DNA of 64,000 nt. Origin: Panopea generosa (lineage: Eukaryota > Mollusca > Bivalvia > Adapedonta > Hiatellidae). The position numbers and the translations under genes are program-made. How positions within the stretch are numbered: position 1 is the stretch's first letter; every line of letters begins with the position of its first letter. Location: assembly GCA_029582155.1 (NCBI GenBank), contig CM055905.1, positions 3,275,920 through 3,339,919 of the forward strand. The letters are read 5' to 3'. Positions 28,406 through 64,000 of this stretch are shown in pieces. The notes under the pieces are model-generated. The model saw only the letters and a list, made by a program, of their open reading frames with translations. It had not been told where the DNA came from and searched no databases.

Positions 28406-28442
28406 TATAAATGCCTGATAACGGCGTAATTATTCGTCAGTT
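28406..28442 (+). promoter_or_regulatory. Core promoter of the Ly6-ShKT-TSP1 gene: TATA box and initiator
   Basis: TATAAA at 28406-28411 is followed 31 bases later by TCAGTT (28437-28442), a good match to the metazoan initiator with its A at 28439. The spacing is the usual TATA-to-start distance. The predicted start gives a 57-base 5' leader before the ATG at 28496. Assignment rests on sequence and position only. Confidence 0.55.
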
Positions 28443-28495
28443 GTCCATAACAGAGCAACATAATCTTTGGTAACATACGTTCGCACAGCACTGAG

Positions 28496-28514
28496 ATGAA
28501 GGTTTACAAAACAA
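28496..28514 (+). CDS. Exon 1: start codon and first residues
   Basis: ATG at 28496 in context CTGAG-ATG-AAG opens six codons, then donor A|GTAAGG in phase 1. The ATG was chosen because the next exon completes a signal peptide in the same frame. Confidence 0.75.
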
Positions 28515-31500
28515 GTAAGGTTTTCATTGCATGTATTTGCTAAACATATTGAACATGTACCATTTGACTCTATACTTATATTAAAGATTGTGTAGTTGTT
28601 AATACATCAACATTTTATCTAAATACATACTGAACGGAACAGCTAACCCGTCACTTTTGTATTTCCAATATCTTTGTTAAAATACTGAGTAGCGTTTAAA
28701 AGTTATATACGACATTATCATACAATTATGTCTTGATTTTACATGGTCTAAATTTTCGTTCAAGTCAAAGCTTCAAGGAAATTGCTTTGATACTTTGTGA
28801 GAAACTACATACAACTGTAATGTACATAAAATGTCAGGTGGCTGGTTAGTTGTTCTGTTCAGTACATTGTAATTTAATGTGCAATATGCTATCGTCCAAG
28901 TCTTTCATGACATCAACCCAATTTATTTATTTTTATTTTATTTCAGAGATATCGCTCCTGTTTGCTGTTTTTCTGTTTTGTGTTAGAAAAGCTGGTAGGT
29001 CTTTCAATGCAGTCATCTTTGTTTTGTTATTTAAGTTATGTGTTTGCATAAACTACAAAGATTGATGTATGGCAGAATCAAATGGGTTGCACTTTAGCTC
29101 ATCACAGCTTTATTCATGTCAATGACAGCGATCGTTCATGTTTCATTTTGTTGCTACAGTAGCCAGGTAAATTGTATGTATTATAATATCAGACGGTTTA
29201 ACCGTACATATACTTAGTATATATACTTAGTTATATTGTATTCTAATAAACTATGAGCTAATCGTACATATTTCATTATAAATAACTATTTGTAAGTTCT
29301 CTGACAAATACATATAGGATATACCATAACGTTCCATACATTCATAAAGGTGTAACTTAGGTATGATATTTACACACATATATTTGTACACGTCAAAGAA
29401 GAATAAGTTCGGCTACGTTCTACTGTATTGTACTAAACATTATTGTTAATCTATATTGAAGGTTTCTGAAAATGTTGTTCTACGGTATGGCTTGAAATGT
29501 AGATATTATTCATAGATATGATATTGACATTTTAACTGATCAAATATGGTCAATCAAATCCAAGTTATAATAGACGAGCGCCTTACTGATTCTTATTGTC
29601 GGCCTTGTTGTGCCATTCACTTCTAAATTCACACTATCGGGACTGATTTGTGTGAGATCCAACTTTATCGTTTTTTATGTGAAGTTAATTTAGTATACGG
29701 GGCGTTATCAAGAAGTATGCTTAATGCTTTGTTAGATGATTGCTCCATATGCACTTGCTTGTCTTTCGGCAGAAACACTGACATGCTACCATTGTTTAAA
29801 TGTGACGCTAATCTCTGACTGTCAAACTGAAACGGATTGCGGATCAGGAGAGGTAAAACAAGTTTATCAGCTAAATCAATATTGTTACCAATAGCACATT
29901 TAGATAGAGATCAAATAAGAAAAGCTATGGTATATGTACATCGGTATGTAAACCTGTGTTATTGAATAGAGCTCACGTCAGAACTATGTAGTAATCGCTA
30001 TATGTAAACTAATGACTGAAGCTCACACCCGAAACTCTACGGTTACCGCTTTTATATTATAGTACACCATTAAAAAAGGCTTTAAAGCTATATCAAAATC
30101 TATAATCTATATATACAACAGTTAGTCTACTTCGATATATTCCACGCAGTAACTTGGAGATCAATTGGTTCACGATGACACAGTTTTTACAATGTTCGTC
30201 ACATACGTTTAAACAAATGCCGATCATACGTTTGTCCCGTGTCAACAGGTGTATCTCGCCATGTCCGACCAAAACTTTAAGGCGATCACTGTGTTCCATT
30301 TTGTAACCTAAATGATACGACCTGCACTCTTATCTTACGTGTATACTTATCAGCACTATAACACATCGTTACTGAACACTGTGGTGTATTTATTACTGTA
30401 AGATATGTACAACATTTGTTCAGAAATTTGAAAACGGTAACTTGGACAATATACTTACATGTATGTGCGGTGTTTCGGATATTTGTTATAGCACAGCGTT
30501 TTGAGATTAAGCTTAACATTTCACACTTAATTTTACAACTTTTTAAAACTCACACAGGCATTTGCAAAATTTACTTTACATTTATAGCCAAATTGTTTGT
30601 AAACAGTGTTTGTTTTTAACCGTAACGTTTATCAAGCACTAATTTGTATTATAATCATGAAAAAAAACTTCTTTATGCTACCCAATATTACCACTGGTTT
30701 GTTGATAGTGTGCCTCATGGAAATTCATTTTTGACCAGATGCTTATAATAAACCTCCATGGTTAACACGGTCATCTGTTTTACAATTTAGGAGTATTGTT
30801 TGAAGCACAATATTTTTTTGGTATATATATTCGTTTAAACCAAACCGTTTCACAAACCTCCGAACGAGATCATGAAAGTGAGTGTTGTACTATTACGGGT
30901 CATAGTTGCTGACGTTACAATAACTACCCATTGGGTTTAAGGGACAATTTACTTATAATATAATTATGTTATACAGCTGCTGGTACATTACTACTACTTA
31001 TGTTTGACATAATCATGCTCGTGTTTTGTTTGTGTTTCATGCTGGGTTGGTTGTAGCCCTAAAGAATTACCTCTTTTTGCGATATCAAGATGCATTTGCC
31101 TAAGAAAGTTTGGCTGTGTAAAGCGGTTGTGCATTATTTTTGTCGAAAATGCTTATCATTGTCATATTTCTTTGTGCATATGAGAACATTGGTGGAACAT
31201 TTATATGATTTTTGCCAAGTTTTGTTGACAATGGGCACTGTTCTATGAAGTCATAATAGTTTAAAGATGCGTAGTGAAACACTGCAACAAATGGGCAAAA
31301 TTGTCAAAAATGAAGGGGTGTATTCAAACCATCGAAATTATGAAAAAGCAACCGGATCAACCCCTTGTTTTCTTTAACATACGTGGACAAACAAAGGTAT
31401 CTATGGGAACAAGACACTTTTTAGAACGACTGGTAATGAATCCAGGGTTCCAGAACTGCATTTCTCTATATGTATTACAGTGCAAAATTATTTGTTGTGT

Positions 31501-34500
31501 GAGACGTCGTGTGAGTGGTCGGACAATACATTATTAATTTTTGTCTTACATCAGTGATAACACTCAGTACAGTTGAACGCACAATGGTTTGTATACCATT
31601 TTGGAAAACCTGCATTCTTTTAAATACCAGGCATAAAGTTGCTTTGTCCTACAATGTTCAATGTGTTCTACATTTTGCAATATGTACCAATGTTACTTCA
31701 CACCGAAACTAGAAGTATGCAAATACTGATAAATCTTCTTCTGAGTTACCATATTCATGTCCTGTGTATGCTTTTTGTGTTGGACTCTGGAGGTTATTCT
31801 ATTTCTGGTATGGGTAGTTTATCTTTGTGACAAGAACGTGATTTTTCACATTTGCTCAACAAATGTTTACCATCACCAAATGCACTTTTCAGCTCATCTG
31901 GATACATTTCTTCATTGAAAAGAATCAATTGAGATAGTTAATCGCTTTTCAATATTTCGGCATTGGCAGGGTAACCCTCTTGCATTTTCATTTTGTAACA
32001 GCCGACGGACTACAAATTGAATTTTACCACTACTTTCTTCTTCTAAAATATATTATAAAAGTAAGACAACAATGGAGAATATGATGAATAACACAACAAC
32101 AATAGCCACTCAACCACACAAAAAAACAACTTAAAAATACACAAACAAACAAATAAAGCACGACGATAACAAAACATGATAACTTTAAAATTGACAAATC
32201 TCATTTTGTAATATTTCATTTCAATGACGTAGTTTGGTTCATTTATGGTTGTATACTCTGCTACTCTGCTATTATCTGACAGCTGATTTAGACATCTGAA
32301 ACAAGTGAACATAAATGTTTAAGTACCTACTGCAATTGATAGTTGTTTTATATTAAAATAAACTTTATTGCAATTGTTTCACTATATTATTCGTAATTTG
32401 GTCAGCGTATATATATCATTAACTAATTGACATTTTATATATTTTTAAACTTCAGTCATGTTTCATGGATCTAATACATACGTCACAAGGTGTCCGATAT
32501 TCTCTGGGATGCCGCAACGATCAGGTATCCATTTACCTATAGCTACATCATAAACATCGCATTCAAATGTAGGATTTAAGCTGGATACCAAAACTCTTAT
32601 TCTAAGTTACTTCTGTAAAATAGGCAAAGTGGACATCAAGGTGACACATATTTTCCTGTTTTTGCTTAAATATAGCATGTAAATACCTTTAAACCTATTT
32701 GACAAAACGGAAACTAATATACGCGTTTTTGTCTCATTCTTTATAGAGGTGGTCTGAAAACTTATATGATAAAATGAGATTTACATTCGTGGACAATTAT
32801 TAGTGATTTTGCAATCATGAAACGACCATCTACAGAGTCTCGCATATTATATTTTTGCCAACTCGTTTTATAAGTTAAATAATACAAAAGCAATCATAAA
32901 AGATCATATTTGTATTTGATAAGACTATGACATGTGTACACAGTTATTATTTAATCTATATGTTTTACGATCAATAGCAATGTCACAGTAACGGTAATAC
33001 CGGGTCAATTGTCGGACGTTCTGTGTCAACACAGGATACAGATAACTGCCAAGATTGTTGTCCAACTACAAGATGTAACAAGAAACTTTGCTCCAACGGT
33101 AATTATAATTTGTCTAATAACCCATAGAAGATATATATCGAAAGTTTCTACTTGTTGTTTAAAACAATGTTGCTAGGTTTTACTCCTTGGTTTTTAATGC
33201 GACGGATTGTCTGTTACCCACAGAAACAAATGACATGGACAGTTTAATGTGTGCCTGTGTTACTCCATCAGTGTCTAACTTTTAAATACAGATGTAACGG
33301 TGTATATGTACAAATCAGTTTGAAGTCAATATTTAGGTTTTGTTACCGGTTATATCACATATGTTTATCAGTGTGGATCTTAGGATATCACTTAAGTTAT
33401 AAACGATATCAATTATGCACATATATTCTTCATGTAATATGAAACGTTTTTAAACATTCGAAAATATGCCAGCTATTGTTCTAACGTTCATGAGATGTTC
33501 AATACTTATTCTTCAACTTACTTCAAACTGTATTTGAACAATTCACTGTTAAAACAAACAAGAAGGCCAAGATGGCCCTATATCACTCACCTGACTGACA
33601 TTGAGTCACCCAACATAAGTAGATTATATAATACATGTACACTCAAAATTCCAGAAAGACAAGATTGGCAAGTAGTTAGAATTTTGATTTGTTTTGAAGA
33701 TGTAACAGATGCGTAGAAGAGTTCAAACTTGGTAGAGGTTCACCCATGGTAAATGTCAGTGAAATTACGTCAAAATCAGGTCAGTAGATTCTGACAAGAA
33801 GGCTTTTGAAGTTTTTACTATAGCTGCTAAGTCTTCGAAATAAGATAAAAATCCAGTTCCAGCACAAAACTAACCTGTTATGTTTGAGAACGGTTTCAGA
33901 CTAAAGCATCAGACTAAACTATTGTGCATGAAACAATCCATAGTTCAAGTACAATAAATATTCCTATGAGTTTCAAACACAAGCCTTCCCAAAGTCTATC
34001 GCTTGAAAGAATTTTGTCGCAGTGCACTCTCTTCCAAAAAAAAATTAAGCTCCTCCTCCAAGATTTCAAGTACACTTTGGCACTGAAAATCTCAAGCAGA
34101 CCTCTTGCTGTAATGAAACTAGCTAAAATATGGCATTGCTTTATTATGAAGCAGTAAACCATCCCTGTCTGAACCATAAATACTCTGACTTTTATATTCA
34201 GAAAAAACACCTTTTTTTAAAATGGTTCATGATATATGAATAATATAATAATATTTCAGTCATTGATTATAATTGTATCATTCATCTTTTCATGATGAAT
34301 TATCTTTTAAAACTTATATCTGGTATAATATTGTATAATAATAGCAAAAAAAAAGTTTATTTAAAGAGTTTATTACCTCTTCTTATAATAATTGCTATAT
34401 ACAGGCATTTATGCTATAAAACAAGGGAAGTAATTTGGCATAAAACTAACCCCACCCCCTGGCTGCCATGTTTTTTGACGAATCAAGATGGCTCAAACAA

Positions 34501-37500
34501 ACTTGGTAGAGAGTCACCCAAGAAACATTTCTGTGAAATTATTTTAAAATGGAGCAAGTAGTTTCTGACAAGAAAGATTTTAAGTTTTTACTATAGCTTA
34601 TATATCCCCTGGCTGCCACGTTTTTTTACGAATCAAGATGGCTTGAACACACTTAGTAGATGGTCACCCAAGGAACATTTCTGTGAAATTATTTTAAAAT
34701 CAAACCAGTAGTTTCTGACAAGAAGATTATTTAAGTTTTTATGATAGCTTATGTAGTAAACTAACCCCACCCCTTGGCCGCCATGTTTTTTGACGAATCA
34801 ATATGGCTTGAAAAAACTTGGTAGATGGTCACTCAAGGAACATATCTGTGAAATTATTTTAAAATCCAACCAATAGTTTCTGACAAGAAGATTTTTTAAG
34901 TTTTTATTAATTAAACTTGCCCACCCCCTGGTGGCCATGTTTTTTGATGAATCAAGATGACTTGATCAAACTTGGTAGAGGGTCACCCAAGGAACATTTC
35001 TGTGAAGTTATATCAAAATTGGCCTGGTGGTTTCAGAGAAGAAGTTGTTAGAAGCTAAATGTTAGACGGACGACGGATGACGGACGGCAGACGACGGACA
35101 CCAGGCGATCACAAAAGCTCAACTGTGAGCCTTTGGCTCAAGTGAGCTAAAAATGAAACACGCCACTTCTGTAACCATGCAAATTATATTTAGCTCAAAC
35201 AAACAATTCTATACGATATATACATGCTGTAAAATGTGTCACATATCAGTTTACATGTAAATTGGAAAATAGAAAGAATAGCATCCTCAAAATATTTTTT
35301 TAAAAAGGAAAAAGAAAAAGTGTTCAATTGCACTAATGCTACAGGATATAAAGAACGAGATAATAAATAAGCAGTACATTAACTTTATTTCCTTGCCGAC
35401 TTCCAGATGTCACGTGTACAGACAGTACAGACATGAACTGTGAAACAACCAACGCTATGGTAGATATATGTATAGATACACACCACGTCAAGACATTGTG
35501 TAGACGATACTGTGGACTTTGTAGTCTGGGTAATTTACTATAACACATACAGACAACATATGTGTACATGTAACATTCAACATAAATAGTCTTTGTTATG
35601 GTATGGTGAAAAAATGCCCATTTAGTAAATGATTGAATTATAAATAAACTGTGTTATACAGATTAATGTATGTAATGTGTTTTACAAAATGAGTGTATTG
35701 TGTTGTAAAAATAGATGTATTATGTTGTTAAAATGAATGAATTATGTTTTAAAAAGAAAATGTCTTAAGTAAAATATATTAATAACAATTCACCAGAACA
35801 AATATTATTGACTACATTGGGATGTTGACGTAATGTTTTAAGACAATTACCTGAAGTACACAGTTAAATACATATGAGGGAGACATATACGTCTAGCAAA
35901 ACACCTTTCAGGAGCACCGGATTAACGAAGGAAACTTAAAAGATAAAAATAGTAAATACAATACAGAGAATTACGACTTTACAGTACTAAAACGTATATC
36001 AAAATATCCTAGCTAGCTTTCGACTTTACCCCTTCATCAGAGGACGATATATAAAGAGAAAAGAGCTTAATATGTTTAAATAACGTTTGTTTCCTTCCCA
36101 AATTTCTTAAATCATGCTATTACATAATTAATGGTATACGCGTTTAATTGAAGAGGACGGTAAATGGTCAAACTGGTCATCATGGACATCATGCACGGCC
36201 ACATGTGGTAATACAACACAGACTCGTACCCGGACATGTACAAACCCTGCCCCTGCAGATGGTGGATTAGACTGTACAGGCAGTAAGATGGAAACCAACA
36301 CTTGCTCGTTAGATCCTTGCCCAAGTAAGAAGTATGATAAGTGTATGATACTTAAATACATAATACATACTCAGTATATAATATTGTACGTAGTGAAACA
36401 TTCCCCAGCCTTTAATATTTGATACAGTAATAGATTAATTGTTTTTAGTTTAAACTTATTTATTTTGCTTCGAATGTGAAACATGTTTTTACAACTTAGA
36501 CAAATCACGCTCGAACTCTTCCTGGTTAGAACCAGTACTAAGCATATGCGGAAAAGTGTCTCGCTCAACGACACTACACATAGCCGTGGCGGAGGATCGA
36601 CCCACGATCCTCCGATCATGGGTTAATTGCTATATATTAATAGATATACAACTGTAATAAGTATATAATTCTTGATATAGTAGCGCGTATATCTTATACT
36701 TAATCTGTAACACTTAATATAAAGTTGTGTATACCATTTAACTTAAAACATTTATATATAACTCTTATTAAACTTTATATGTAATATCAAAATATAGTAA
36801 CAGTTAATATTTAATACGGTAATATATATAAACTTAGTCTTATTCGTATAATACTTACTGCAGTAATTTAACATATATATTTATACTTATTACAGTAATA
36901 TGCATACATTTTTACATCGCAGCATTAGTGCAAAACGGTACCTTCTTAATCTATATAGTGCTGAATACGTTTATTTTACATGTAAACAATATAAATACAT
37001 AATAGTTTATATAGTTACATATATATACACTTATACTTAATATATAATAGTTTGTAAAGTAGCACGTAAGCACGTATACTTAGTTCTTAATACTTTATAT
37101 AAGGACACATGGACAATTAAACTTAGTAAATTATATGTAGTATTATACGTTTAACCTACAATACTAAATCTGTAATAAAAGTATCCTATATAGAAATGCG
37201 CATACAGTTATACTAAGTACACTATGTGTTTTGATATACGCATAACTTATAGGTCTCACTACACAGTTGAATTTTGTTCTCTGTTCTATATAAAATAAGG
37301 CCTAGGATTTCACTGGTAATTAAAGAATTCCACATAGAATTATTTTAAAAGTATTTTTTTTCATAGCAGAAATGTATATACACATATAAATGCACAATAA
37401 CTGGTAGGTTGTCCACGTTTTTTTTTTTTAAAGAGGGTGCAGTGACACCCTGAGTTTTTTTTTTTGAAAAAGAAGTACTCAAATGCTCATAAATACATTC

Positions 37501-40500
37501 ATACGTTGAAATCCTATAAAAGTCACATTTTTAACATCAGTGATGTCTTTTTGCAGTATATGCTATGCCAACTTTTGCTCTACACATCTACAGCAAGAAA
37601 TCACAGCCACTATGAACCATTTTGAAAATATTTCATTACCAAAGTACATGGGCCTATTTTTAAGAGTAAAATCTTGCTACCGTGTGAAAAAAGGGGCATA
37701 ACAGTGTAGTGAGACGTTATAACACTCAGTCTTTAATACTAGTATCTAATATAGAAATGTGCATACAGTTATACTTAGTACACTATTCGTATTGTTATGC
37801 GTATCACCTATACTATTAAGTATTTTATACTTGTATCTCATATAGAAATGTACATACAGTTAAACTAAGTACACTATGTGTATTGTTATACGTATCACCT
37901 ATAATACTTAGTCTGTAATACTAGTATTTAATATAGAAATGTGCATACAGTTATACTAAGTACACTATGTGTATAGATATATGTATTACCTATAATACTT
38001 AATCTGTAATACTAGTATCTAATATAGAAATGTGAATAGAGTTATAATTAGTACACTATGTGTATTGCTATACGTATCACCTATAAAACTTAGTCTGTAA
38101 TACTATTATCTAATATAGAAATGTGCATAAAGTTATACTTAGTACACTATTCGTATTGATATGCGTATCACCTATAATACTAAGTCTATTAAACTTGTAT
38201 CTCATATAGAAATGGCATACAGTTAAACTGAGTACACTATGTGTATTGTTATACGTATCACCTATAATACTTAGTCTGTAATACTAGTATTTAATATAAA
38301 AATGGGCATACAGTTATACTAAGTACACTATGTGTATTCATATATGTATAACCTATAATACTTAGTCTGTAATACTAGTACCTAATATAGAGATGTGAAT
38401 AGAGTTATACTTAGTGCACTATGTGTATTGCTATACGTATCACCTATAAAACTTAGTCTGTAAAACTAGTATCTAATATAGAAATGTGAATACAGTTATA
38501 CTTAGTACACTGTTCGTATTGATATGCGTATCACCTATAAAACTAAGTCTATTATACTTGTATCTCATGTAGAAATGGCATACAGTTAAACTGAGTACAC
38601 TATGTGTATTGTTATACGTATCACCTATAATACTTAGTCTGTAATACTAGTATCTAATATAGAAATGTGCATACAGTTATACTAAGTACACTATGTGTAT
38701 TGATATATGTATAACCTATAATACTTAGTATGTAATTCTAGTATCTAATATAGAAATGTGTATACAGTTATACTTAGTACAATATGTGTATTTTTATACA
38801 TATAACCTATAATACTGAGTCTGTTATACTAGTTTCTAATATAGAAATGTGCTTACAGTTATACTAAGTGCACTGTTTGTATTGCTATACGCATAACCTA
38901 TAACACTAATTCGGTAATACTAGTACTTATATAGAAATGTGCATACAGTTATTTTGAGTACACTCTATATATTGTTATACGTATAACCTATAATACTGAG
39001 TCTGTAATACTAGTATCTTATATAGAAATAGAAATATGCCTACAGTTATACTTAGTGCACTATGTGTATTGCTATACGTATAACCTATAAAACTAAGTCT
39101 GTAATACTAGTATCTAAACACTATGTATTGATGAACGTATAATATATAATACTTTGTTTGTAATACTATTTCCTTATATAGAAATGTGCATAGAGTAATA
39201 CTAAGTACAATATGTGTATTGCTATACGTATAACCTGTAATAATAAGTCTGTAATACTAGTATCTAAACTATATGTATTGCTATATGTATAACCTATAAT
39301 TCTTAGTCTGTAATGATAGTATCTAATATAGAAATTTGTATACAGTTATACTTAGTACACTATTTGTATTGCTATACGTATAACATATAATATTTAGTCT
39401 GTAATACTAGTATATTAAATAGAAATGTGCATACAGTTATACTTAGTGCACTATGTGTATTGCTATACGTATCACCTATAAAACTTAGTCTGAATTACTA
39501 GTATCTTATATAGAAATAGAAATGTGCATACAGTTATACTTATTACACTATTCGTATTGATATGCGTATCACCTATAATACTAAGTCTATTATACTTGTA
39601 TATCATATAAAAATGCGCATACAGTTAAACATAGTACACTATGGGTATTGCTATACGAATCACCTATAGTACTTAGTTTGTAATACTAGTATCTAATATA
39701 GAAATGTGCATACAGCTATACTTAGTAAACTATGTGTTTTTTATACGTATAACCCTTAGTCTGTAATACTAGTATCTAATATAGAAATGTGCATACGGCT
39801 ATACTTAGTAAATTATGTGTATTTTAATCGTATAACCTATAATACTCAGTCTGTAATTCTAGTATCTAATACAGAAATGTGCATACAATTATACTTAGTA
39901 CAATATGTGTATTTTTATACATATAACCTATAATACTGAGTCTGTAATACTAGTATCTAATATAGAAATGTGCTAACAGTTATACTAAGAGCACTGTTTG
40001 TATTGCTATACGCATAACCTATAACACTAAGTCGGTTATACTAGTACTTATATAGAAATGTGCATACAGTTATATTGAGTACACTATATGTATTGTTATA
40101 CGTATAACCTATAATACTGAGTCTGTAATACTAGTATCTCATATAGAAATATGCATACAGTTATACTTAGTGCACTTTGTTTATTGATATACGTATAACC
40201 TATAATACTTTGTTTGTTATACTTTTTCCTAATGTAGAAATGTGCATAGAGTTATACTAAGTACAATATGTGTATTACTCTACGTATAACCTATAATACT
40301 TAGTCTGTAATACTAGTATCTAAACTATATGTATTGCTATATGCATAACCTATAATACTTAGTCTGTAATACTAGTATCTAATATAGAAATACGATAAAG
40401 TTATACTTAGTGCACTTTGTGTATTGTTATACGTATCACCTCTAAATCTTAGTTTGTAATATTAGTATCGTATATAGAAATGTGATTACAGTGATACTTA

Positions 40501-43500: not shown

Positions 43501-46500
43501 AATCGATTAATAAGTTTCACCTTTATTTACGAGAGAAACAATTGGAAGATTAGTTTGAATATAAAGATAACTAGTTGTCAAGGTGTGTCCGTGATCGAGA
43601 AGTTAAGACGTTCAACTTATGTAAGATTGTTTTCCGTCATGCGGGTTCGAATCCTACCCGGCGAATTTTGTTTTTAATAAAAGCAAATTAATAAAACTTA
43701 TTTCGTTATATTTATCAGTTCGTCTTTTTGAAAAAAAAAATTGAAGAGCAATTGTCATGACCCTTGCGCCGTCGGCATCGTTGTCGTCCGCTGGTTAAAG
43801 TTTTATGCGCCAAAAACTGTTATTGGGTATTTATATGATTTTTTGTACATGCAAATGTATCCAAATCGGTAAATAGATCACAGATTGGTAAAACTTTGTA
43901 TCATTGTTTGAATTTGCCAGGTCAATTGTCCCATATCTACTTGGCTATTTGTTTTGTAGTAAATAAAAAACTCTGCCACATTTCAACTTTGTTACCGACC
44001 CCAAGACCATCACCCCTACCCCGCCTCCCCCACCCCATCCCATCCCATCCCCGCCCATTTTTTTTTAAATTTTGTTTTGTATTTAATCAAATACTCTGCC
44101 CCATTTCAACTTTGTTACCGACCCCAAGACCCTCACAACTACCCGACCCCCGTCCCTGTCCATTTTTTTAGCTCGTCTTTTTGAAAAAAAAACGAAGAGC
44201 TGTTGTCATTACGCTGGCGTCGTCATCGTCGTTGTCGTCGTCCGCTGGTTAAAGTTTTATGTTTAGCTCAGTTTTTTTCTCTGTTTCTGAACAAACAACT
44301 CATGTTACGGTGACTAAACTTCATAAACACATTCACATCATATTATACAAACAATGTAAATAGCTAACTTACCTAAATTTTCATACTTTTGACTCTAAAT
44401 TCTTCGGTTAAAGTATTATGTTTAGCTCAGCTTTTTCTCTGTTTCTGAACAAACTTCTCATGGTTTGGTGACTAAATTTAAAAAACACATTTATATCATA
44501 CTATAGAAACAATGTATATAGCTAACTTACATAAATTTCCATACTTTGGGCTTTAAAACCTTAGGTTAAAGTTTTTTGTTTAGCTCGGGTTTGAACTCTT
44601 TTTATTTTTTTTTTTTAAATCAATTCTATTTTTCAGTAATACAACTATTTCTGTAAGCTGATCACCATCAAATAAAAAATAGTTTACATCACTGACCTTG
44701 ACATATTTAATTTTTTTTTTTAAATTTGTTTTGTATTAAATCAAAATACTCTCAACTTTGTTACCGACCAAAAGACCCTCACACCTACACCCATCCCAAC
44801 CCATTTTTAAAAAAAAAAAAAAAAAAGTTTTGTATTAAATCAAAATACTCTGTCCGTCCCATTTCCACTTTGTTACCGACCCCAAGACCCTCACACTTAC
44901 CCCCATCCCAACCCACTTTTTTTTAAAAAAAAAAATTGTTTTGTATTTAATCAAAGTCTCTATGGAGAAGAACTTTATAAGATTTTATCTTCCGTTCTAA
45001 TCCATATTTATACTTTTAAACTGATTTGTATGTGTAAATGTGAAGGAATAAATATGTTTAAACTAAATAAAAAACTCTGCCCCATTTCAACTTTGTTACT
45101 GACCCCAAGACCCTCACCCCTACCCCTCCCTCACCCTTATTTTTTTCTTTTAAATTTTGTTTTGTATTGAATCAAATTCTCTGCCCCATTTCAATTTTGT
45201 TACTGACCCCAAGACCCTCACCCCAATCCCCCATCCCACCCATTTTTTATATTTTTTTTAAATTTTGTTTTGTAGTAAATCAAATACTCTGCCTCATTTC
45301 AACTTTGTTACTGACCCCTCATCCCTACCCTACTTTTTATAAATGAAGTTAAAAACTTTGACCCCATTTAAACTTTGTTACTGACCCAAAGGACTACCTC
45401 CCACCAAGAACCCTCGCCCAGCTGTTCCTCTGAGCCCCACCCCCTGTAATGGTAGAGACATACCGTATATAGTGAATGCATATGATAATTTTATTGATGT
45501 CTGTGTCTAGCAGTTACTAAGATATAAAATATATCAAATATCAAAGTAGAATTATCCCGTTTGTCCCATTGAGATTATTTGATGTTAATAAAGCGGATGC
45601 CAGTTTTCATCATTGTATAGCAAGTAGTTGTGATATTTGAGAGTTAGAGATATGATATTTCAATAAAAATAACTAAATGATTTTCAAAGCATAAAAGCAA
45701 TATTTCTGCCTTACAAACCAAACATGGTTATCCAACGTGTCCCATTGATGTATTACTATAATATTCAAAGTAGAAGTTTGTTAACAACATTGTATTTTAT
45801 ATTATACTTACCATCCATATGAAGTAATTTTATATACTATTACCATTTCTACTTTCAAGGACATATATTCAAAGAAATAAAAAACTGAAGTATACTTAGT
45901 AAGAACTGTGTTGTGTTTATGAAATACTCACACGTGTATAACGTTTACACATTATGTATAAATTTAATAAATATGGAAATGATCTTCATTTTGAAATAGT
46001 TCACGGAGCTTGGAGTTTGTGGTCAAACTGGGGTTCGTGCTCAGTTTCGTGTAGTATTGGAATGGAAAATCGGGAACGGACATGCTCCAATCCTTCTCCG
46101 AGCAGATTCGGAAATCATTGCTTTGGTGACAGTCGGGATTATAGAATATGTAATGCGGGAGCATGCGCAAGTATGTCCACCTTCTAGCTGTCAATTTTAA
46201 TCGGGTTTGTTAACTGGTAGAGATTCAATTCATATGATTTTATAAGAACAAAATACCAAAACAACTTAAAATGAAGCAATGAACGGAAGTGTTATTGCTT
46301 GATTTACACCAGAGCGTAGAATGTTTATAAAACAGAAACATTAATTTTTTATTTTATTTTATATCATATGGTTTTATATAGAGTTCAATAATAATTGAAA
46401 ATAAGAATAGTTCGCAATTAGTTATAAAGGTCTCAAGAACTGAAACAATGACGTTATTATCGTTTTGCAACACGACTATGCTCAATAAAGGTTGATATAC

Positions 46501-49500
46501 ATTTACACTGTTTTAGATGGTGGCTGGTCATCCTGGAATACTTGGAGCACCTGCTCGGTCACGTGTGGAGGCGGATTCCAAACCCGTAAAAGGTTGTGCA
46601 ACAATCCTACACCGTCAGCATTTGGACAATATTGTCAGGGCGACAATAAAGACATCAGCTCCTGCAGTAATAAAATATGTCCCGGTAAAGATGTCTGGTT
46701 TTATTAAACTTTATTGCTATGATACGAAGGATATCTATGAAACTCCCGTGTGTTTATAGATCGTTTCTCAACAATGCCTAGCGAAACATTGGTATACTAT
46801 GCTGACATCGTTCATAAATGACTTTGTAATATTCTGGCATCGGTCATAAATTTCTATTATATATAATATTCTGACATCCACTCAAATGTTAAGTAGTGTG
46901 TATGGTATAAATTATGTCAGCCTACACACCATTCTAACGATGAAATATCTGTTTACAAAAGTAGTCTCCTGAACCCGTCATAATTACAATGACGGATTAG
47001 TAAGATTCCATAAGGCTATACACATGTATTGTACACGAGGATACTCCAATGTACCGTGCTTAGAATACTGTCGTTAATAGACAAATAGTGTTGAAAGCGA
47101 CGTTAAACACCATAAAACAACAACAATAGAAAGGATAACTTAGTACCAGGACTGGTCGCTCCCTGTAAGTAAATGTCTGGATGAAGTATAATGTAAAAGG
47201 AACTTCGTCATATCCGTGTTATCCGAGTATATAAATAAAAAAGAAATGAAAATATTAATAATATTTATTTAATTCACATATAAACTAGTTTGGAAGTTTG
47301 TGTTTAAATTTCTTCGTTCACTTTAAATTGTTTTCAATCAATTCGATTTTTATACTTGTGTACATCTGAAGTTCACTATTTTAAAGTCACTGTTTGTAAT
47401 ATATATGATAAATATTATGTATAAAACATGATTTAATATAAAAAAAGTTTGATGTTCAGAAACTATGGTCGCTGACAGTATAAAACAAATTATGAATATT
47501 TACTTATATACAATGAGAACAAAGTATAAAACCTTTTTTATTCAAGCAGTACCAACAGTCGTTTGCTTAACTAATGCCATTTAGTGGTATTTAATTTAAA
47601 TAATGAGGTTTGGTATAGTATAGTATTATAGTTGATAGTAAAAAGTCAACAGCAAAATAACGCGAATTGTGTTGCTGTGGATACTATCCATTCACCGACA
47701 GTAACAGTCGAATTTCGGGAAGCTTTTATACTACACTCAATGACCAGCATTAAATTTTGTAAAATACTGCATGTGTAAATCAAGACTTGCGTAATAGAAT
47801 GTTTGAACGATTCGTTTGAAAACATAAAATCTCTAAAAAATTACATAATTTACACATCTTTTAATCTATATATGTTTATATTTTCTTCTTTTATATATTT
47901 TGACACGTACAATTTGACTGATGTAGTTTGGTGGTAACTCTTTCTGTTATTGAAGTTTGGTTGTAGTTAATTCTGAAATTTGATGGTAGTTAGTTCTACT
48001 TATAAGGTTTGCGGTTTGTAAGATTTACTGATTAAGTTTGATGGTAGTTAATTTTCCAAATGACGTTTGGTGCTAGTTAATTCTACTAATGAATTTTGGT
48101 GCTAGTTAATTCTACTGGTTTGGTGCTAGTTAATTCTACTAATGAATTTTGGTGCTAGTTAATTCTACTGGTGATGTTTAGTGTAGTTAGTTTAACTTAT
48201 GAGGTGTTCGTGTTAGTTTATCCTATTTATAAAGTTTGGTGTAGATAATTCTACTAATAATGTTTGGTTGTGATAGATAATTCTACTAATTGTGTTTGGT
48301 TGTAATTACTACAAGTAATGAAGTTTGGTCGTAGTTAATTCAATTAATCAAGCTTGATGGTAGTTAATTGCACTTATTTTTAATTTTACTAGTGGAGTTT
48401 GGTGGTAGTTAATTTTATTAAAATCAATGACGTCTTGTGATAGTTAACATTACTTATGACATTTGGTGGTAGTTAGTTCTTCTTATGAAGTTTTGTTGTA
48501 ATTAATTGTACATATGAAATTTAGTAGTAGTTGATTCTACTTATAAATGTTAGTTACTTTTACTAATGAAGTTTGGTGGTAGTTTGGTCTACTAGTGTAG
48601 TTTGGTGTTGTAAGTTCTATTAATGAAGTTTTGCGCTAGATACTTTTCCTAATGACGTATGATGGTAGTTAATTTTACTCATGGAGTATCGTGGTCGTTA
48701 ATTCTACCAATAAAGTTTGGTGGTAGTTAATTCTACTAATGCAGTTTGGTGATAGTTAGTTTGACTGATATGTTTTGTGGATAGCAAAGTCTATTAATGA
48801 AGTTTGGTTGAAGTTAATTCTAACTATGAAATTTGATGGTAGTTAGCTCTACTTAAGGCGTTTGGTACTAGTTATTTCTACTAATTAAGTTTTGAGGTAG
48901 TTATCTTAACTAATGACGTTGGTGATAGTTAGTTCTATAAAATGATGTTTGGTTGTAGTTGATATTAGTTATTACGTTTGGTTGTAATTAATTCTACTAA
49001 TAAAGTTTGCTGGTAGTTAAATTTACTATTAAAGTTTGATGGTAGTTAAAATTATTTATGAAGTTTGGTGGTAGTTAATTATACTAATGACGTTTGTGGT
49101 ATTAAGTCTACTAATAAAGTTTAAGCTATTTTAACTGATGAAGTTTGGTAGTATTTGATTTTTACTAATGAAGTTTTGTGGGTAATTCTATAAATGAAAT
49201 ATGGTGGTAGTTAAATCTATTCATGAAGTTTAGTGGTAATTAATTTTACTAATACAGTTTGGTGATATTAATTTATACTAATGAAGTTTGGTGATAGTTA
49301 GTTTTACTTATGAACTTTGGTGTAGTTAATTCTGTTAATGAAATTTTATGATAGTTGGTTTTATTATCGCAGTTTGGTGGTAGTTAATTTTGGTAATCAA
49401 ATGTGATGGTAGTCAATTCTACTAATGAAGTAAATTTCATCCCTTTAAGCTGTCTGTGATATTCTTGAGAATCGGCGAAATCCATTGGAGGGAAGTCCGA

Positions 49501-52500
49501 TGACTATTGGCTTTAATGGAACCATGACATGGAATGTGTGGTATTCTGGAAAACAATCAAACTATGATAAGGCTGCAATATTAACAATCATTTCTAAGCA
49601 GTTTTAAGTTGTTCTAATGATATGCACAACAAGGGTGTTCTTAGTCAAACCAACATTAACGTAGCTAGTTAAATACTTAATATCTGCAGGTACACACATA
49701 TATACTTAACATTATCTCTACTGCAGTGGACTGTGGTTTGGCGGTTCACGCCAGAGGTAGCGACTCCTTCGCCCGGCCCGTTGACACAATACTAAGTGCT
49801 AATTGTACTCAGGAAACTCGAGCGCATCGATCTATATAAGATCTGGTTTCATTTCCCAGTCGAGCTTAAATAAATAAGTATAAATTAAATACCAATATAA
49901 ACACGAGCAGACGATTGGCATATAATGTGGCAATAATTATCACGAATGACACATAATGTGGTAATTAGTGTCGTAGTGACACATAATGTGGTAATAATTA
50001 TCACGAGTGACACATAATGCAGTGATAATTATCACGAGTGACACATAATGTGGTAATACGTGTCACTGGTGACACATAATGAGTTAATAATAATCACGAG
50101 TGATACATTATATGGTGATAATTGTCACGAGTGACACATAGTTACGTAATTGTTATCACCAGTGACACACACTGTGATAATAAATGTTACGAGTGACACT
50201 TAATGAGGTCATACTTATCACAAGTGACACGCAATATGGTAATAAGTATTACGACATATAATGTGGTAATATTTATCACGCGTCACACATAATGTGGTGA
50301 TTATTGTCACGAGTGACACATAGTGTGGTTATTATTATAATGTGTGACTAGTGACAAGAAATAACGCATTACGTGTCACTCTTGACAATAATTACCACAC
50401 TATGTAGTATTCGTGGTAATAAATATCACGAATGAAACATAATATGGTGATAATTGTAACGAGTGACACATAATGACGTTATTGCTATCACTATCACAAG
50501 TGACACATTATGTGATAATAATTGTCACGAGTGAAACTTAATGAGTTAATAATTGTCACGAGTCACACATAATGTGGTAAAAATTACCACGAGTGACATA
50601 TAGTGTTGTGATAATTCCTACGAGTGACAAATGAAGTGGAAATAAAAGTGACTCATAATGTGGTGATAATTACCACGAATGACACATAGTGACGTAAAAG
50701 TTATTTCGAGTGACACCTACTTTGGCAATAATTGTCACGATTAACACATGTTGTGGTAATAATCTATACGAGTGATAATGTGATAATAATGTGTGTCACG
50801 CATGGCACGTACTTTGGTAATAAATGTTAGCTCAAATGGAACATAATACAATGATACATAATGTGGTAATAATTGTTGTCAAGAATGACACATATTGTGG
50901 TAACAATTGTAGTCATGAATGGCACGTAAAGTGATAATAATTGTTGTAACGAATGGCACGTCATTTGTCACGAATGGCACAATTATATTCAACATGTACC
51001 ATATATTGATTATAGCAACATTCACAATACAAGAATAACAATTTAACTTATATTCATCCAGTACCAAGCATTTGTTTAGGTAACATTCACCATACAATCA
51101 CCATACTGTCCACTTAAATTCATTCCGTACCATACATTTGATACAGCAACATTCACCATACAATCATCATACTGTCCACTTTTATTCATCACCTTCCATG
51201 CATTAGTTACAGCAACATTCACCATACAATCATCATACTTTCCACTTGTATTCATCACGTACCATACATTTGTTACATAAATATTGACCATACAATCATC
51301 ATACTGTCCACTTATATTCATCGTGTACCATACATTTGTTACATAAACATTCACCACACAATCGTCATACTGTCCACTTATATTCATTATGTACAAAGCA
51401 TTTGTTGCAGCAACATTCCCCATACAATCACCATACTGTCCACTTAAATTCGTCACGTACCATTCATTTGTTACATCAACATTCACCATACAATCACCAT
51501 ACTGTCCACTTAAATTCGTCACATACCATTCATTTGTTACAGCAACATTGATCATACAATCACCATACTGTCCACTTACATTCGTCACGTACCATAAATT
51601 TGTTACAGCAACATTCACCTTACAATCACCATACTGTCCACTTATATTCGTCACGTACCACCCATTTGTTACAGCAACATTCACCATACAATCACCATAC
51701 TGTCCACTTATATTCGTCACTAACCATACATTTGTTACAGCAACATTCACCATACAATCACCATACTGTCCACTTATATTCGTCACTTACCATATATATG
51801 TTACAGCAACATTCACCATACAATCACAATACTGTCACTGATTCTCATCACGTACCATAAATTTGTAACATATACATTCACCATACAATCGTCATACTGT
51901 ACACTTCTATTCATCACGTACCATACATTTGTTACAACAACATTCACCATACAATCACCATACTGTCCACTTATATTCGTCATGTACCATTCATTTGTTA
52001 CATCAACATTCACCATACAATCACCATACTGTCCACTTATATTCGACACTAACCATACATTTGTTACAGCAACATTCACCATACAATCATCATACTGTCC
52101 ACTTATATTCGTCACGTACCATAAATTTGTTACATCAACATTCACCATACAATCACCATACTGTCCACTTATATTTGTCACCTACCACCCATTTGTTACA
52201 GCAACATTAACCATACAATCACTATACTGTCCACTTATATTCATCACGTACCAAACATTTATTACAGCAACATTCAACATACAATCACCATACTGTCCAC
52301 ACATATTCATCACGTACCATACATTGATTACAGCAACATTTTCCATAAAATGACTATACTGTCCACGTGTATTTATCATGTACCATACATTATTTACAGC
52401 AACAACCATCAACCATACAATAACCATACTGTCCACTTATATTCATCACGTACCATACATTGATTACAGAATATTTTCCATACAATGACTATACTGTCCA

Positions 52501-53129
52501 CGTATATTCATCATGTACCATACATTTTTTACAGCAACAACCATCAACCTTACAACACTATACTATTCACTTATATTCATCACGTATCATACAATTATTA
52601 CAACAACATTCACCATATAATCACTATACTGACCACTTGTATTTGTCACGTACCATATATTTATTCCAGCAACATATATCATACAATCATCATACTTTTA
52701 TTCATTACGTATATTCATCATGAACCATACATTTGTTACACCAATAACCATCAATCATACAATCAACATACTGTCCTCTTATTTCATTATGTGCCATATA
52801 TTTGTTACAGGGACATTCACTGCTGTAGCGCATTGCGAAGACGTGGACAGCGATTGTGCTATATACGGAAGAGATTACATTTGTTTTGGTGACTATATAC
52901 CCTGGTCAATGATTCACTGTGCTAAGTTTTGCAACTTTTGTACAAGTACGTACAACTTTTACAATGTTATATTTCTGTTTAGTTGAATAGTGAAAAACGA
53001 AACACAAATTAACTTAAGTCTTCATGCATTGTTTATATTTGTAATATTATGCTGACTGTCTTATCAGATGGAACAGATGGGTGGCAGATTCTATACCACA
53101 ATGTAACCTCATCGGCATTTTGGAAGTAA
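28496..53129 (+). CDS. Secreted Ly6-ShKT-TSP1(x3)-ShKT protein, 11 coding exons
   Basis: I assembled this gene from splice sites and phases; it has no long open frame. Coding exons: 28496-28514, 28947-28994, 29773-29852, 32456-32524, 32978-33098, 35407-35529, 36154-36324, 46000-46170, 46517-46684, 52811-52945, 53068-53129 (1,167 nt, 388 residues). All introns are GT...AG and all phases join. Predicted protein: signal peptide 1-22; Ly6/uPAR (three-finger) domain about 27-111; ShKT 116-151; TSP1 repeats 154-210, 211-267, 268-323; ShKT 332-367; tail to 388. All parts are Cys-rich and extracellular. N-glycosylation motifs occur in the Ly6 domain (NVT), first TSP1 (NTT) and tail (NVT). A role in extracellular recognition or adhesion is inference. 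I know of no described family with this exact order. Additional exons inside the 9.7-kb intron 7 cannot be excluded. Confidence 0.85.
28947..28994 (+). CDS. Exon 2: signal peptide core
   Basis: Acceptor TTTATTTTATTTCAG, then [12 protein letters not shown], a hydrophobic run following the Lys-containing start from exon 1, ending at VRKA near the probable signal-peptidase site. Donor G|GTAGGT, phase 1. An alternative acceptor two bases downstream would break the frame. Confidence 0.78.
29773..29852 (+). CDS. Exon 3: first third of the Ly6/uPAR domain
   Basis: Acceptor TCTTTCGGCAG (phase 1). The exon encodes [10 protein letters not shown] ... [12 protein letters not shown], the C-x2-C start and the CxxGE turn that open three-finger Ly6/uPAR domains. 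Donor GAG|GTAAAA in phase 0, the usual internal phase for a split Ly6 domain. Confidence 0.88.
32456..32524 (+). CDS. Exon 4: middle of the Ly6/uPAR domain
   Basis: A 23-codon exon between ATTTTTAAACTTCAG and CAG|GTATCC, phase 0 on both sides. It encodes SCFMDL ... [12 protein letters not shown], matching the central C...GC strands of the fold. Its phase fits exons 3 and 5 and no other frame is open with Cys spacing. Confidence 0.85.
32978..33098 (+). CDS. Exon 5: end of the Ly6/uPAR domain
   Basis: Acceptor GATCAATAG, phase 0. The exon ends with [16 protein letters not shown], the diagnostic CC-x4-CN terminus of Ly6/uPAR domains. Donor AACG|GTAATT returns to phase 1, the phase used by all following modules. 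No GPI-type hydrophobic tail follows, in line with a secreted protein. Confidence 0.88.
33099..35406 (+). repeat. Intron 5, with a ~150-bp tandem repeat (about 33700-35060)
   Basis: Units contain CTGGCTGCCATGTTTTTTGA, then CAAGATGGCT, CTTGGTAGA, TCACCCAAGGAACATTTCTG, TAGTTTCTGACAAGAAG. Clear starts lie near 34454, 34604, 34766 and 34919, with a worn unit at about 33730. The segment from about 33560 (AAGGCCAAGATGGCCC) to about 35150 (GAGCCTTTGGCTCAAGTGAG) looks like one dispersed element ending in a GACGGACGACGGATGACGG stretch. Confidence 0.7.
35407..35529 (+). CDS. Exon 6: first ShKT domain
   Basis: Acceptor CCTTGCCGACTTCCAG, phase 1; donor CTGG|GTAATT, phase 1. The exon encodes a six-Cys ShKT domain: [11 protein letters not shown] ... 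DIC ... [10 protein letters not shown]. The C-x2-C ending and the Asp/Asn before Cys2 are standard. ShKT is a small disulfide fold found in many secreted animal proteins, often as an accessory module; nothing here suggests channel-blocking activity. Confidence 0.9.
36154..36324 (+). CDS. Exon 7: first TSP1 repeat
   Basis: The exon encodes a TSP1 repeat: [17 protein letters not shown], then [13 protein letters not shown], then [16 protein letters not shown]. All six Cys and the W-x2-W-x2-W ladder (sites for C-mannosylation in this family) are present. The acceptor is weak (TTTAATTGAAG), but its phase 1 joins exon 6 exactly. Donor CCAA|GTAAGA, phase 1. Confidence 0.87.
36325..37246 (+). other. 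Start of intron 7: tRNA-like remnant and worn satellite C shoulder
   Basis: A family 2 tRNA-like segment lies at about 36553-36632 (minus strand, CATAGCCGTGGCGGAGGATC on the plus strand). From 36640 the sequence consists of AT-rich, very degenerate satellite C-like words (AATACTTA, TATACTTA). No exon seen. Confidence 0.5.
37252..37716. mobile_element. 465-bp MITE-like element inside satellite C
   Basis: Ends carry a 12-bp inverted repeat (GTCTCACTACAC and GTGTAGTGAGAC), flanked by TTATA on both sides (37247-37251, 37717-37721). Satellite C sequence resumes directly after it, so it inserted into an existing array. The interior holds homopolymer T runs and a GGGTGCAGTGACACCC hairpin, no coding sequence. 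Confidence 0.7.
37717..42540. repeat. Satellite C array (~91 bp units) in intron 7
   Basis: Roughly fifty units of GCATACAGTTATACTTAGTA, then CACTATGTGTATTGCTATAC, then GTATAACCTATAATACTTAG, then TCTGTAATACTAGTATCTAA, then TATAGAAATGT. Variant units recur at about 364-bp steps (four monomers), such as the TATTCGTATTGATATGCG variant near 37780, 38145 and 38505, so higher-order repeats exist. Shoulders at 36640-37246 and 42541-43240 are worn versions. Confidence 0.93.
42541..43582 (+). other. Intron 7: worn satellite C shoulder, then featureless sequence
   Basis: Up to about 43240 words like TATACTTA and TCTGTAAT persist without clear period. The rest is AT-rich and I see no exon in it. Confidence 0.45.
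43583..43665 (+). repeat. tRNA-like (SINE head) with an exact B box
   Basis: GTGTCCGTGATCGAGAAGTT ... GCGGGTTCGAATCCTACCCG resembles a long-variable-arm tRNA; GGTTCGAATCC matches the B-box consensus exactly. The acceptor stem does not pair well and the copy is followed by AT-rich sequence, so a SINE head is more likely than a working tRNA gene. Confidence 0.5.
43720..44280. repeat. Two ends of a hairpin-tipped dispersed repeat
   Basis: TCGTCTTTTTGAAAAAAAA followed by GAAGAGC occurs at about 43722 and 44170 and folds back on itself (AGCTCGTCTTTTT with AAAAACGAAGAGCT). Each is followed by GTCGTCCGCTGGTTAAAGTT. The same kind of end appears at about 27130. Confidence 0.55.
43925..45430. repeat. 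C-rich ~110-125 bp repeat in intron 7
   Basis: About seven irregular units share AATACTCTGCCCCATTTCAA, then CTTTGTTACCGACCCCAAGA, then a CCCTCACCCCTACCCC-like run and a poly-T tract. The densest C runs (44012-44056) make the minus strand a strong G-quadruplex candidate. The interval 45431-45999 holds no recognisable feature. Confidence 0.8.
46000..46170 (+). CDS. Exon 8: second TSP1 repeat
   Basis: Phase 1-1 exon encoding [18 protein letters not shown], then [14 protein letters not shown] and [16 protein letters not shown]. Acceptor TTCATTTTGAAATAG; donor GCAA|GTATGT. Its broken twin lies at 6729-6899. The short intron 8 (46171-46516) holds nothing else. Confidence 0.9.
46517..46684 (+). CDS. 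Exon 9: third TSP1 repeat
   Basis: Phase 1-1 exon encoding [19 protein letters not shown], then [15 protein letters not shown], then [22 protein letters not shown] is the classical TSP1 core. Acceptor TTTACACTGTTTTAG; donor CCCG|GTAAAG. A roughly 90% identical exon lies on the minus strand at 63813-63980, and the first ~75 bases of the following intron are also shared. Confidence 0.92.
46760..47929 (+). other. Intron 9, left part
   Basis: AT-rich sequence with no exon or repeat I can name, apart from the start (46685-46760), which is conserved with the minus-strand paralogue. Confidence 0.45.
47930..49440. repeat. Satellite D array 2 (~29 bp units) in intron 9
   Basis: About fifty degenerate units of AATGAAGTTTGGTGGTAGTT + AATTCTACT, the same family as 19391-19670. 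It is followed by a stretch starting AAGCTGTCTGTGATATTC that has a counterpart after the first array. Confidence 0.92.
49721..49790 (+). repeat. tRNA-like head, family 1, copy 3
   Basis: CTGCAGTGGACTGTGGTTTG, then GCGGTTCACGCCAGAGGTAG is a worn copy of 9501-9570. The upstream phrase AAGGGTGTTCTTAGTCAAAC also matches that found upstream of copies 1 and 2. Satellite A follows about 130 bp downstream. The rest of 49441-49920 is linker. Confidence 0.5.
49920..50985. repeat. Satellite A array 3 in intron 9
   Basis: Units of GAGTGACACATAATGTGGTA + ATAATTATCAC with numerous deletions. Around 50340-50410 a short segment is inverted (GTGTCACTCTTGACAATAAT), giving a local head-to-head arrangement. Confidence 0.9.
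51050..52810. repeat. 66-bp satellite E ending at the splice acceptor of exon 10
   Basis: About 26 units of ACATTCACCATACAATCACC, then ATACTGTCCACTTATATTCG, then TCACGTACCATACATTTGTT, then ACAGCA. Period is exactly 66 for most units. The last unit ends in ATTTGTTACAG, the acceptor of exon 10, and the exon start GGACATTCAC matches the repeat start CAACATTCAC. About two thirds of units keep the acceptor-like TTACAG. Because 66 is a multiple of 3, long frames stay open on both strands; these are repeat translations. Confidence 0.95.
52811..52945 (+). CDS. Exon 10: second ShKT domain
   Basis: Phase 1-1 exon between ATTTGTTACAG and ACAA|GTACGT. It encodes [10 protein letters not shown] ... YICFGDYI ... 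[10 protein letters not shown]: six Cys in ShKT spacing with the C-x3-C-x2-C end. It differs clearly from the first ShKT exon, so it is not a recent copy of it. Its 5' edge is homologous to the adjacent satellite E unit. Confidence 0.9.
53068..53129 (+). CDS. Exon 11: C-terminal tail and stop
   Basis: Acceptor CTGACTGTCTTATCAG, phase 1. It encodes [19 protein letters not shown] and a TAA at 53127-53129. The tail has one N-glycosylation motif and no hydrophobic anchor. Phase 1 joins exon 10 exactly, which makes the total coding length divisible by three. Confidence 0.72.
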
Positions 53130-53480
53130 TCAATATTTGAGTATAACCTTCGTAAATGATTATATTCTATTACTACACTCACTTATGCCTTACACAAACT
53201 GTCTGTTTTTTTTGTGGTGTCATACCATTGGTCAATTCCAGCAACACCAACCGCCAACTCACCACTACGTAGAATGACAAAACCCAAGGTGCAAGTCACT
53301 ACGACCGCTCATGAATAAGTGGACAAAGGAATGTGACTCTACCGATTATGTTTATGACTATATATATATGTATATATATTCCGTGGTTTGAAATAAATTG
53401 TGCAAAATACTTTGGCTTTTGTAAATATATCAATGAATAAAAGCAACAGTAATACTACTATAGCATTATCTTGTGTATTG
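53130..53480 (+). terminator. 3' untranslated region with poly(A) signals
   Basis: AATAAA occurs at 53392-53397 and 53436-53441, 263 and 307 bases after the stop. Either could end the transcript. Confidence 0.55.
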
Positions 53481-60509: not shown

Positions 60510-60898
60510 TTAAAATTCAGTTACCAGAACACCGTTAAACTCGGTGTCTATAAAATTTGTAGAGATATGATTCCACTCGTTACAATCACTAACATCAACC
60601 ACATCTCCAGCCTTTAACATAAGTATTGCATCCGCAGTGTTAGATTGGAAGTAAACATTGCGACCTTGACTGATAGCTTTATGTATTGTATTAAGCCTGA
60701 TAAAACAGAAAGATAGGGCATTGTTAACTTTTGTCTCGATTGTTAATGAGAAGAGATAAACTCCAGCCACGGTACACGTGAACTTTCCCGTCTGTACGTT
60801 GTATCCGCCTCCGATATTTGTAATGGCTTCCTTGAATGCTACAATATTATTCACAAGTTCTGCGTTTGGAGATGCAACAGAAAACGCGACTGGTTTAT
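60510..60898 (-). CDS. C1q-domain terminal exon, intact
   Basis: Minus-strand exon of 389 nt with acceptor CTAATGTCTTCCAG, phase 1, and TAA at 60512-60510. It encodes a full globular C1q domain: KPVAFSVASP at the start, NIGGGYNVQTGKFTCTVAG in the core, VYLFSLTI, AGDVVDV, and FNGVLVTEF at the end. It has the same length and the same core as the plus-strand exon at 17308, with many amino-acid changes elsewhere. Upstream on the same strand the next recognisable exon is a TSP1 repeat (63980-63813, phase 1 donor), so a TSP1...C1q protein is likely. No ShKT or further TSP1 exon is seen in the 2.9 kb between. Confidence 0.92.
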
Positions 60899-63980: not shown

Positions 63981-64000
63981 CTTAAACAATGTAATATACG

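Follow-up and report, generated by a model that had tools for sequence, protein, structure and literature searches.

A C1q-less member of a bivalve Ly6-ShKT-TSP1 family in Panopea generosa, probably with a terminal ShKT segment copied from another gene

We analysed a stretch of 64,000 nt from contig CM055905.1 of the bivalve Panopea generosa (C12:3,275,920-3,339,919; hereafter the window, to which all positions without a contig prefix refer) and searched the genome, 1.474 Gb in 39 contigs. The window contains a gene for a putative secreted protein at 28,496-53,318, where eleven exons, rebuilt from the raw sequence, are bounded by AG acceptors and GT donors and follow one another in an unbroken chain of phases. 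Exon 1 opens at an ATG and exon 11 closes at a TAA, giving a product of 393 codons plus the stop, in which an N-terminus that looks by eye like a signal peptide is followed by a Ly6 domain split over three exons, a ShKT domain, three TSP1 domains and a second ShKT. No exon exceeds 171 nt. The initial annotation of such a gene, with its coordinates and module order, is borne out by the rebuild. The span given there as 24.6 kb is 24,823 bp when counted from the ATG to the stop. The coding length of 1,167 nt was not reproduced: our sum is 1,182 nt, 15 more, or 1,164 nt if the second AG of exon 10 (start 52829) is the acceptor, and that acceptor was therefore rejected as the source of the earlier figure. 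The gene is surrounded by four tandem siblings, A and B on the same strand and D and E on the opposite strand. Its features are as follows.

28406-28412, plus strand: TATA box TATAAAT, found by eye; TATAAAT is present also in siblings A, B, D and E
28437-28441, plus strand: initiator-like TCAGT, the likely transcription start about 31 nt after the TATA box, found by eye
28496-28514, plus strand: exon 1, with the start codon and the beginning of the signal peptide; ATG and donor are kept in A, B and D and altered in E
28947-28994, plus strand: exon 2, core of the signal peptide; present in A, B and E, not found in D at an E-value of 0.01
29773-29852, plus strand: exon 3, first part of Ly6
32456-32524, plus strand: exon 4, second part of Ly6
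32978-33098, plus strand: exon 5, third part of Ly6, with the CxxCC....CN end
35407-35529, plus strand: exon 6, first ShKT (ShKT1)
36154-36324, plus strand: exon 7, first TSP1
37718-42517, unstranded: satellite of 91 bp within intron 7
46000-46170, plus strand: exon 8, second TSP1
46517-46684, plus strand: exon 9, third TSP1
52811-52945, plus strand: exon 10, terminal ShKT (ShKT2), starting at 52829 with the alternative acceptor; its DNA is 84% identical to an exon at C12:63542205-63542336
53242-53318, plus strand: exon 11, which encodes a Thr/Pro-rich tail and the stop codon; from 53291 a truncated copy of a third ShKT exon of the donor locus described below
53392 and 53436 (53392-53441), plus strand: two AATAAA polyadenylation signals after the stop, found by eye

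Exons 6-10 have phase-1 introns on both sides, and exons 7-11 begin in phase 1. We compared the exon borders with those of five paralogues (A, D, C18a, C18b and C7b), using 32 of 34 exon rows; the two rows omitted are of exon 5, where the ends were uncertain. Where the codons correspond, AG stands at 31 of 32 acceptors and GT at 31 of 32 donors, while positions shifted by 1-9 nt either way give at most 4 AG acceptors and 11 GT donors. This agreement indicates that the exon model is not due to chance. For exon 10 we prefer the start at 52811, because the Thr/Pro linker of the donor begins, by eye, at the equivalent of the first AG.

Domain assignments were examined with Pfam profiles, as the initial annotation had proposed, and only part of them passes the cut-offs. 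A scan of the joined protein returned TSP1 and ShK families only, with no C1q. TSP_1 scores 104.3 bits (3.7e-30, three stretches; cut-off 21.6), which identifies the TSP1 domains. ShK reaches 16.8 bits on the joined protein, under its cut-off of 20.9; the ShKT2 segment taken alone scores 23.8 bits, above it, and the ShKT1 segment alone 11.5 bits, below it. The Ly6 segment gives 15.3-16.0 bits with Toxin_TOLIP (cut-off 21.2) and so does not reach the Pfam gathering score; we regard the Ly6 domain of this gene as divergent. It nevertheless shows the LxCxxC start, the ten-cysteine three-finger pattern and the CC....CN end of Ly6/uPAR domains, with 12 cysteines in all, and each ShKT has six (counts by eye). 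The two weak assignments are supported by the family: at E-values of 0.1 or better, UPAR_LY6 matches 15 of 29 family Ly6 segments and Toxin_TOLIP 23 of 29, while PF01549 (ShK) matches 17 of 22 ShKT1 segments, whose six cysteines, in the ShKT pattern, are invariant across all 22 rows. A search of PDB sequences with the ShKT1 profile returned apparently only chance matches.

The initial annotation had suggested looking for the same order in other bivalve proteomes. We assembled 133 homologues, the best 120 of 259 protein-search matches and 13 from a second search, and called their modules with profiles built from the first homologue set itself. Ly6, ShKT and TSP1 are all present in 79 of the 133 listed homologues, some with a truncated Ly6, and in all 79 the order is Ly6, ShKT, TSP1; the others listed comprise 46 with TSP1 only, 7 with ShKT and TSP1, and 1 with Ly6 and neither of the other two. 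The commonest arrangement among the 79 is Ly6-ShKT-TSP1x3-C1q (41), and 48 end in C1q after any number of TSP1. Other heads are fibrinogen (8) and SRCR (9). In 14 no head was recognised, and some of these predictions are evidently cut short. Where a source is named, it is Ruditapes, Mercenaria, Dreissena, Mya, Mactra or Sinanodonta; of these we looked up Sinanodonta, Dreissena and Mya, all three of which belong to Heteroconchia. Given this module order and the conserved exon phases, exons 1-9 are, on sequence criteria, those of an ordinary member of a large and widespread bivalve family, Ly6-ShKT-TSP1(n)-head. Two homologues, P0005 and P0014, carry a second ShKT inside the TSP1 array, a further sign of module shuffling.

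Several whole members sit on contigs barely longer than themselves: P0002 (559 aa on 1,731 bp), P0049 (453 aa on 1,738 bp), P0065 (462 aa on 1,675 bp) and P0072 (480 aa on 1,611 bp). Since the modules occupy separate exons in the genome, these contigs are probably spliced RNA. The earlier proposal that the modules form one transcript thus gains ground, as Ly6 and TSP1 modules stand together, in the same order, in all 79 homologues, and one secreted product is very likely. A protein-database search with the gene's own Ly6-ShKT region (10 candidates) gave no match, and one with the same region of P0031 gave 20 candidates; in the genome, exons 1-6 have 71 matches, many to the ShKT only. The fewest head changes on a quick tree, in which 29 of 80 inner branches are drawn open, number 6 without the headless predictions (14 of 85 rows) and 17 with them.

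Sibling A (C12:3244104-3256931) encodes Ly6, ShKT, two TSP1 and C1q, and sibling D Ly6, ShKT, three TSP1 and C1q; the two TSP1 exons found before the C1q of A suggest that TSP1 number varies between close tandem copies. Sibling B has stops in both of its TSP1 exons and a broken C1q. Sibling E, whose start context is altered and in which Ly6 exons 3 and 5 were not found, retains its TSP1s and C1q. The 3' ends examined at distant loci (two on C18, one on C7 and one on C3) all end in C1q, so that C1q is carried by four tandem siblings and four distant loci, one copy being broken. In a stalk tree the gene is sister to A (91% identity; Shimodaira-Hasegawa-like approximate likelihood ratio test support, SH-aLRT, 99), then joins D (98) and the two C18 loci (97), and all of these nearest relatives end in C1q. 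No C1q was found on the plus strand downstream of exon 9. The following features bear on its place.

46685-47441, plus strand: stretch of intron 9, homologous in pieces to sibling E; left flank of the lost C1q exon
47921-49431, unstranded: satellite of 29 bp at the expected position of C1q
49628-49915, plus strand: right flank of the lost C1q exon; in A and E it starts 396 bp downstream of the C1q match
60510-60908, minus strand: C1q exon of sibling D, which is inverted and has its third TSP1 exon at about 63817-63981
6728-6898, plus strand: TSP1-2 exon of sibling pseudogene B, broken, with two stops
about 8647-8995: broken C1q exon of sibling pseudogene B

The left homology to sibling E ends at 47,441, 183 bp before the C1q match of E. 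A block between the flanks, 49,425-49,610, occurs further downstream in A and also after an orphan C1q exon (see below). As both flanks survive with no C1q between them, the gene very probably once had a C1q exon and lost it. A 31-bp satellite family (GACACATAATGTGGTAATAATTATCACGA...) occupies window positions 9801-10679, 18360-19114, 49911-50775 and 56148-59052; it recurs at the site of the lost C1q and, in several siblings, downstream of the C1q exon. By eye it looks partly palindromic, and it might promote recombination.

The 3' end of the gene has a different source. The peptide of exons 10-11 matches four ShKT exons at C12:63,537,289-63,544,470, on the opposite strand of the same chromosome and 60 Mb away, with 63-80% identity; the next match by E-value (88 candidates scored) is at 8.6e-5 and 40% identity. 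In DNA, 52,818-52,976 matches donor exon 2 at 84%, and the match runs on collinearly through the two later stretches listed here after the adjoining satellite.

50983-52820, unstranded: satellite of 66 bp adjoining exon 10, with the first AG acceptor and the opening codons provided by its last unit
52978-53121, plus strand: stretch of intron 10, a 68% homologue of the intron that precedes the third donor ShKT exon
53291-53432, plus strand: homologue (73%) of the third donor ShKT exon, for the most part decayed and forming 3' untranslated region today

About 1.7 kb of donor intron is absent from the copied segment. A match resembling exon 10 at 53363-53422 was not significant by itself, as 32 of 500 shuffles were as good or better, and was later supported by the donor comparison. 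Exon 11 stops at the first cysteine position of this second donor-derived ShKT, and the earlier description of complete domains therefore fails there, exon 11 being the beginning of a truncated further ShKT. A related satellite, with a period of 55 bp and a similarity of 71-80% over most matches, likewise adjoins donor exon 2, and TTACAG stands in the equivalent place at donor exon 2 and exon 10. At the distant locus ShKT exons stand in a row, joined by Thr/Pro-rich linkers, and with four such exons it is more likely the donor than the recipient. The donor region also contains a 147-aa frame of Thr/Pro repeats (L045:3140-3583, minus strand), of the kind found in mucin stalks. We call the donor gene mucin-like from the linkers and this frame, which may belong to the same gene. 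Exons 10-11 thus appear to be a collinear copy of two ShKT exons from a mucin-like gene.

A foreign origin would also suit a gene that stops after exon 9, a few codons into intron 9, with exons 10-11 as an unspliced or separate remnant of a ShKT gene. The relatives speak for such an end: none of the 133 listed homologues has a terminal ShKT by the ShKT1 profile, and the 20 matches listed for exon 10 as query are all to ShKT1 regions. However, exon 10 is bounded by splice sites of the right phase at both ends, exon 11 is followed by polyadenylation signals, the same strand has no further family exon between 46.7 and 52.8 kb, and between exon 10 and the donor the nonsynonymous rate (dN) is far below the synonymous rate (dS). 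We therefore think this ending improbable. The breakpoints fall at satellite arrays and the donor is 60 Mb away, so we also considered an assembly artefact in which satellites at 47.9-52.8 kb join two unrelated loci; by sequence, a mis-join could have occurred within the 66-bp satellite (50,983-52,820). But the donor locus is present separately and differs at 16-32% of sites, which means that the ShKT segment is not the donor misplaced, and the right C1q flank (49.6-49.9 kb) lies on the gene's side of that satellite, making the loss of C1q independent of any such join. An artefact is accordingly very improbable. We hold with good confidence, from these comparisons, that the gene's structural history comprised the loss of C1q and the gain of a ShKT segment downstream.

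A further alternative is an early-stage pseudogene, in which decay began after C1q loss and the in-frame ShKT exons downstream are a coincidence. Siblings B and E are broken in the ways described, and the reading frame of exon 11 breaks off where a ShKT would have its first cysteine. Exons 1-10, on the other hand, are free of stops, frameshifts and cysteine losses, every splice site is intact, the TATA box and exon 1 agree with those of siblings, and dN/dS comes to 0.27, 0.21 and 0.23 against A, D and E respectively. The dN/dS against pseudogene B is only 0.38, which makes the ratio by itself weak evidence of function. For exon 10 and donor exon 2, dS reaches 0.735 (37 codons, 18.5 sites), compared with 0.17 between the gene and A, a value at odds with a simple recent copy. 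The mismatch could be due to gene conversion between the gene and A, or to a source copy that we did not see. An early pseudogene seems rather unlikely, and the best explanation overall, which we favour with some reserve, is a real, working chimera with a swapped head.

For this chimera we propose the following course. The ancestral platform would have consisted of a signal peptide, a Ly6 three-finger domain, a ShKT, a TSP1 rod and a single-exon C1q head. The C1q exon would then have been lost between preserved flanks, satellite DNA taking its place, and a segment of the mucin-like multi-ShKT gene would have arrived downstream, bringing a satellite with a splice acceptor, a ShKT exon and a second, now decayed ShKT, whereby exon 9 could splice to ShKT exon 10. 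The C1q exons of A, D and E begin in phase 1, and together with the phase-1 flanks of the stalk exons this makes head exchange possible without a frame shift. The C1q members may be secreted recognition proteins that bind host partners at the Ly6/ShKT end and ligands through C1q, a trimerising head borne on the end of a stiff TSP1 rod like that of properdin. Lacking C1q, the product of this gene would be monomeric, and might be a retargeted or antagonistic variant competing for the same Ly6/ShKT partner. That the gene encodes a C1q-less variant of a putative secreted recognition protein is probable; the recognition role and the competition are tentative suggestions, somewhat less than evenly probable.

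Between pseudogene B and the gene lies the orphan C1q exon (17253-17696, plus strand, with the stop-free C1q stretch at 17,310-17,690). An acceptor is present, and a polyadenylation signal can be seen by eye. The DNA around it, 16936-17896, is a repeat of 8277-9227 at 84.7%, which means that the C1q exon was duplicated on its own together with its flanks. C1q profile scores are 62.1 bits for the orphan and 63.3 bits for sibling D (cut-off 23.7). Decayed retrotransposon-like frames with reverse transcriptase matches are present at 14071-15590 (plus strand), between two C1q copies of pseudogene B, and at 55394-55747 (minus strand); RVT_1 scores 63.0 and 44.1 bits (cut-off 29.6), and a third piece, at 18.8 bits, stays under the cut-off.

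The C1q domain of bivalve C1qDC proteins is present in sibling D and in the orphan exon, whereas the gene itself lacks it and falls outside that group. C1qDC genes often occur in tandem duplicates, as at this locus (PMC8905726, PMC6835236, in the parts consulted). The main texts of PMC6835236, PMC10672478, PMC8905726 and PMC5499747, apart from figures (such as the domain drawing in PMC8905726) and supplements, make no mention of thrombospondin, TSP, ShK or Ly6. RefSeq predictions from Ruditapes, Mercenaria, Dreissena and Mya named "coadhesin-like", "thrombospondin-1-like", "hemicentin-1-like" or "SCO-spondin-like" share the Ly6-ShKT-TSP1 platform; they differ from the gene in having C1q, fibrinogen, SRCR or no recognised head, with no terminal ShKT seen, and their names reflect TSP1 only. 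A limpet paper (PMC7333891) records ShKT from a mucus protein as well as from nematode mucins, lacking the channel-blocking dyad. The donor locus, with its linkers, resembles such ShKT (SXC) mucins and secreted proteins, whereas in our gene one ShKT module caps a Ly6-TSP1 protein.

Structure comparison (VIA-align) of a full-length model returned mostly C1q-type folds, all on the C-terminal domain, and a shorter relative was folded for that reason. Properdin, which shares the rod of TSP1 repeats, is among the best structural matches of relatives in predicted models; to our knowledge it has no Ly6, ShKT or C1q. Snail FREPs, CREPs and GREPs combine a constant N-terminal immunoglobulin-type platform with varied recognition heads, and the clam family likewise pairs a platform, here Ly6-ShKT-TSP1, with different heads. 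FREP- and CREP-type receptors carry an immunoglobulin-type domain and a fibrinogen or C-type lectin head, and by the Pfam scan the gene product is not of this type.

The initial annotation knew of no described family with this order. We too found no description of the family or the order in the literature searched, including the main texts of PMC8905726, PMC10672478, PMC5499747, PMC11312191, PMC7333891 and PMC6835236 (most subscription journals, figures and supplements lay outside it), and the family is apparently undescribed. Ly6-ShKT-TSP1x3 itself, however, is widespread in databases, and only the terminal ShKT is unusual. The domains, and family members under other names, are thus already known, and the head swap is the new part.

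We suggest, as a conjecture that we would put at rather below even, that in heteroconch bivalves (clams, freshwater mussels) one Ly6-ShKT-TSP1 stalk receives interchangeable heads, C1q, fibrinogen, SRCR or ShKT, by phase-1 exon shuffling, with acceptor-carrying satellite DNA as vehicle, and that this gene is a head swap in which both the donor and the lost site are visible. Dozens of mis-named clam proteins are thereby brought together as a single family that shares a stalk and varies in its recognition heads, which parallels the snail FREPs. At this locus the steps of exon shuffling can be read in the DNA: a head lost with its flanks kept, exons copied from an identifiable gene, and an acceptor taken from a satellite. 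If heads are often exchanged in the family, bivalve immune repertoires would diversify by a route that can be tested in individuals and populations.

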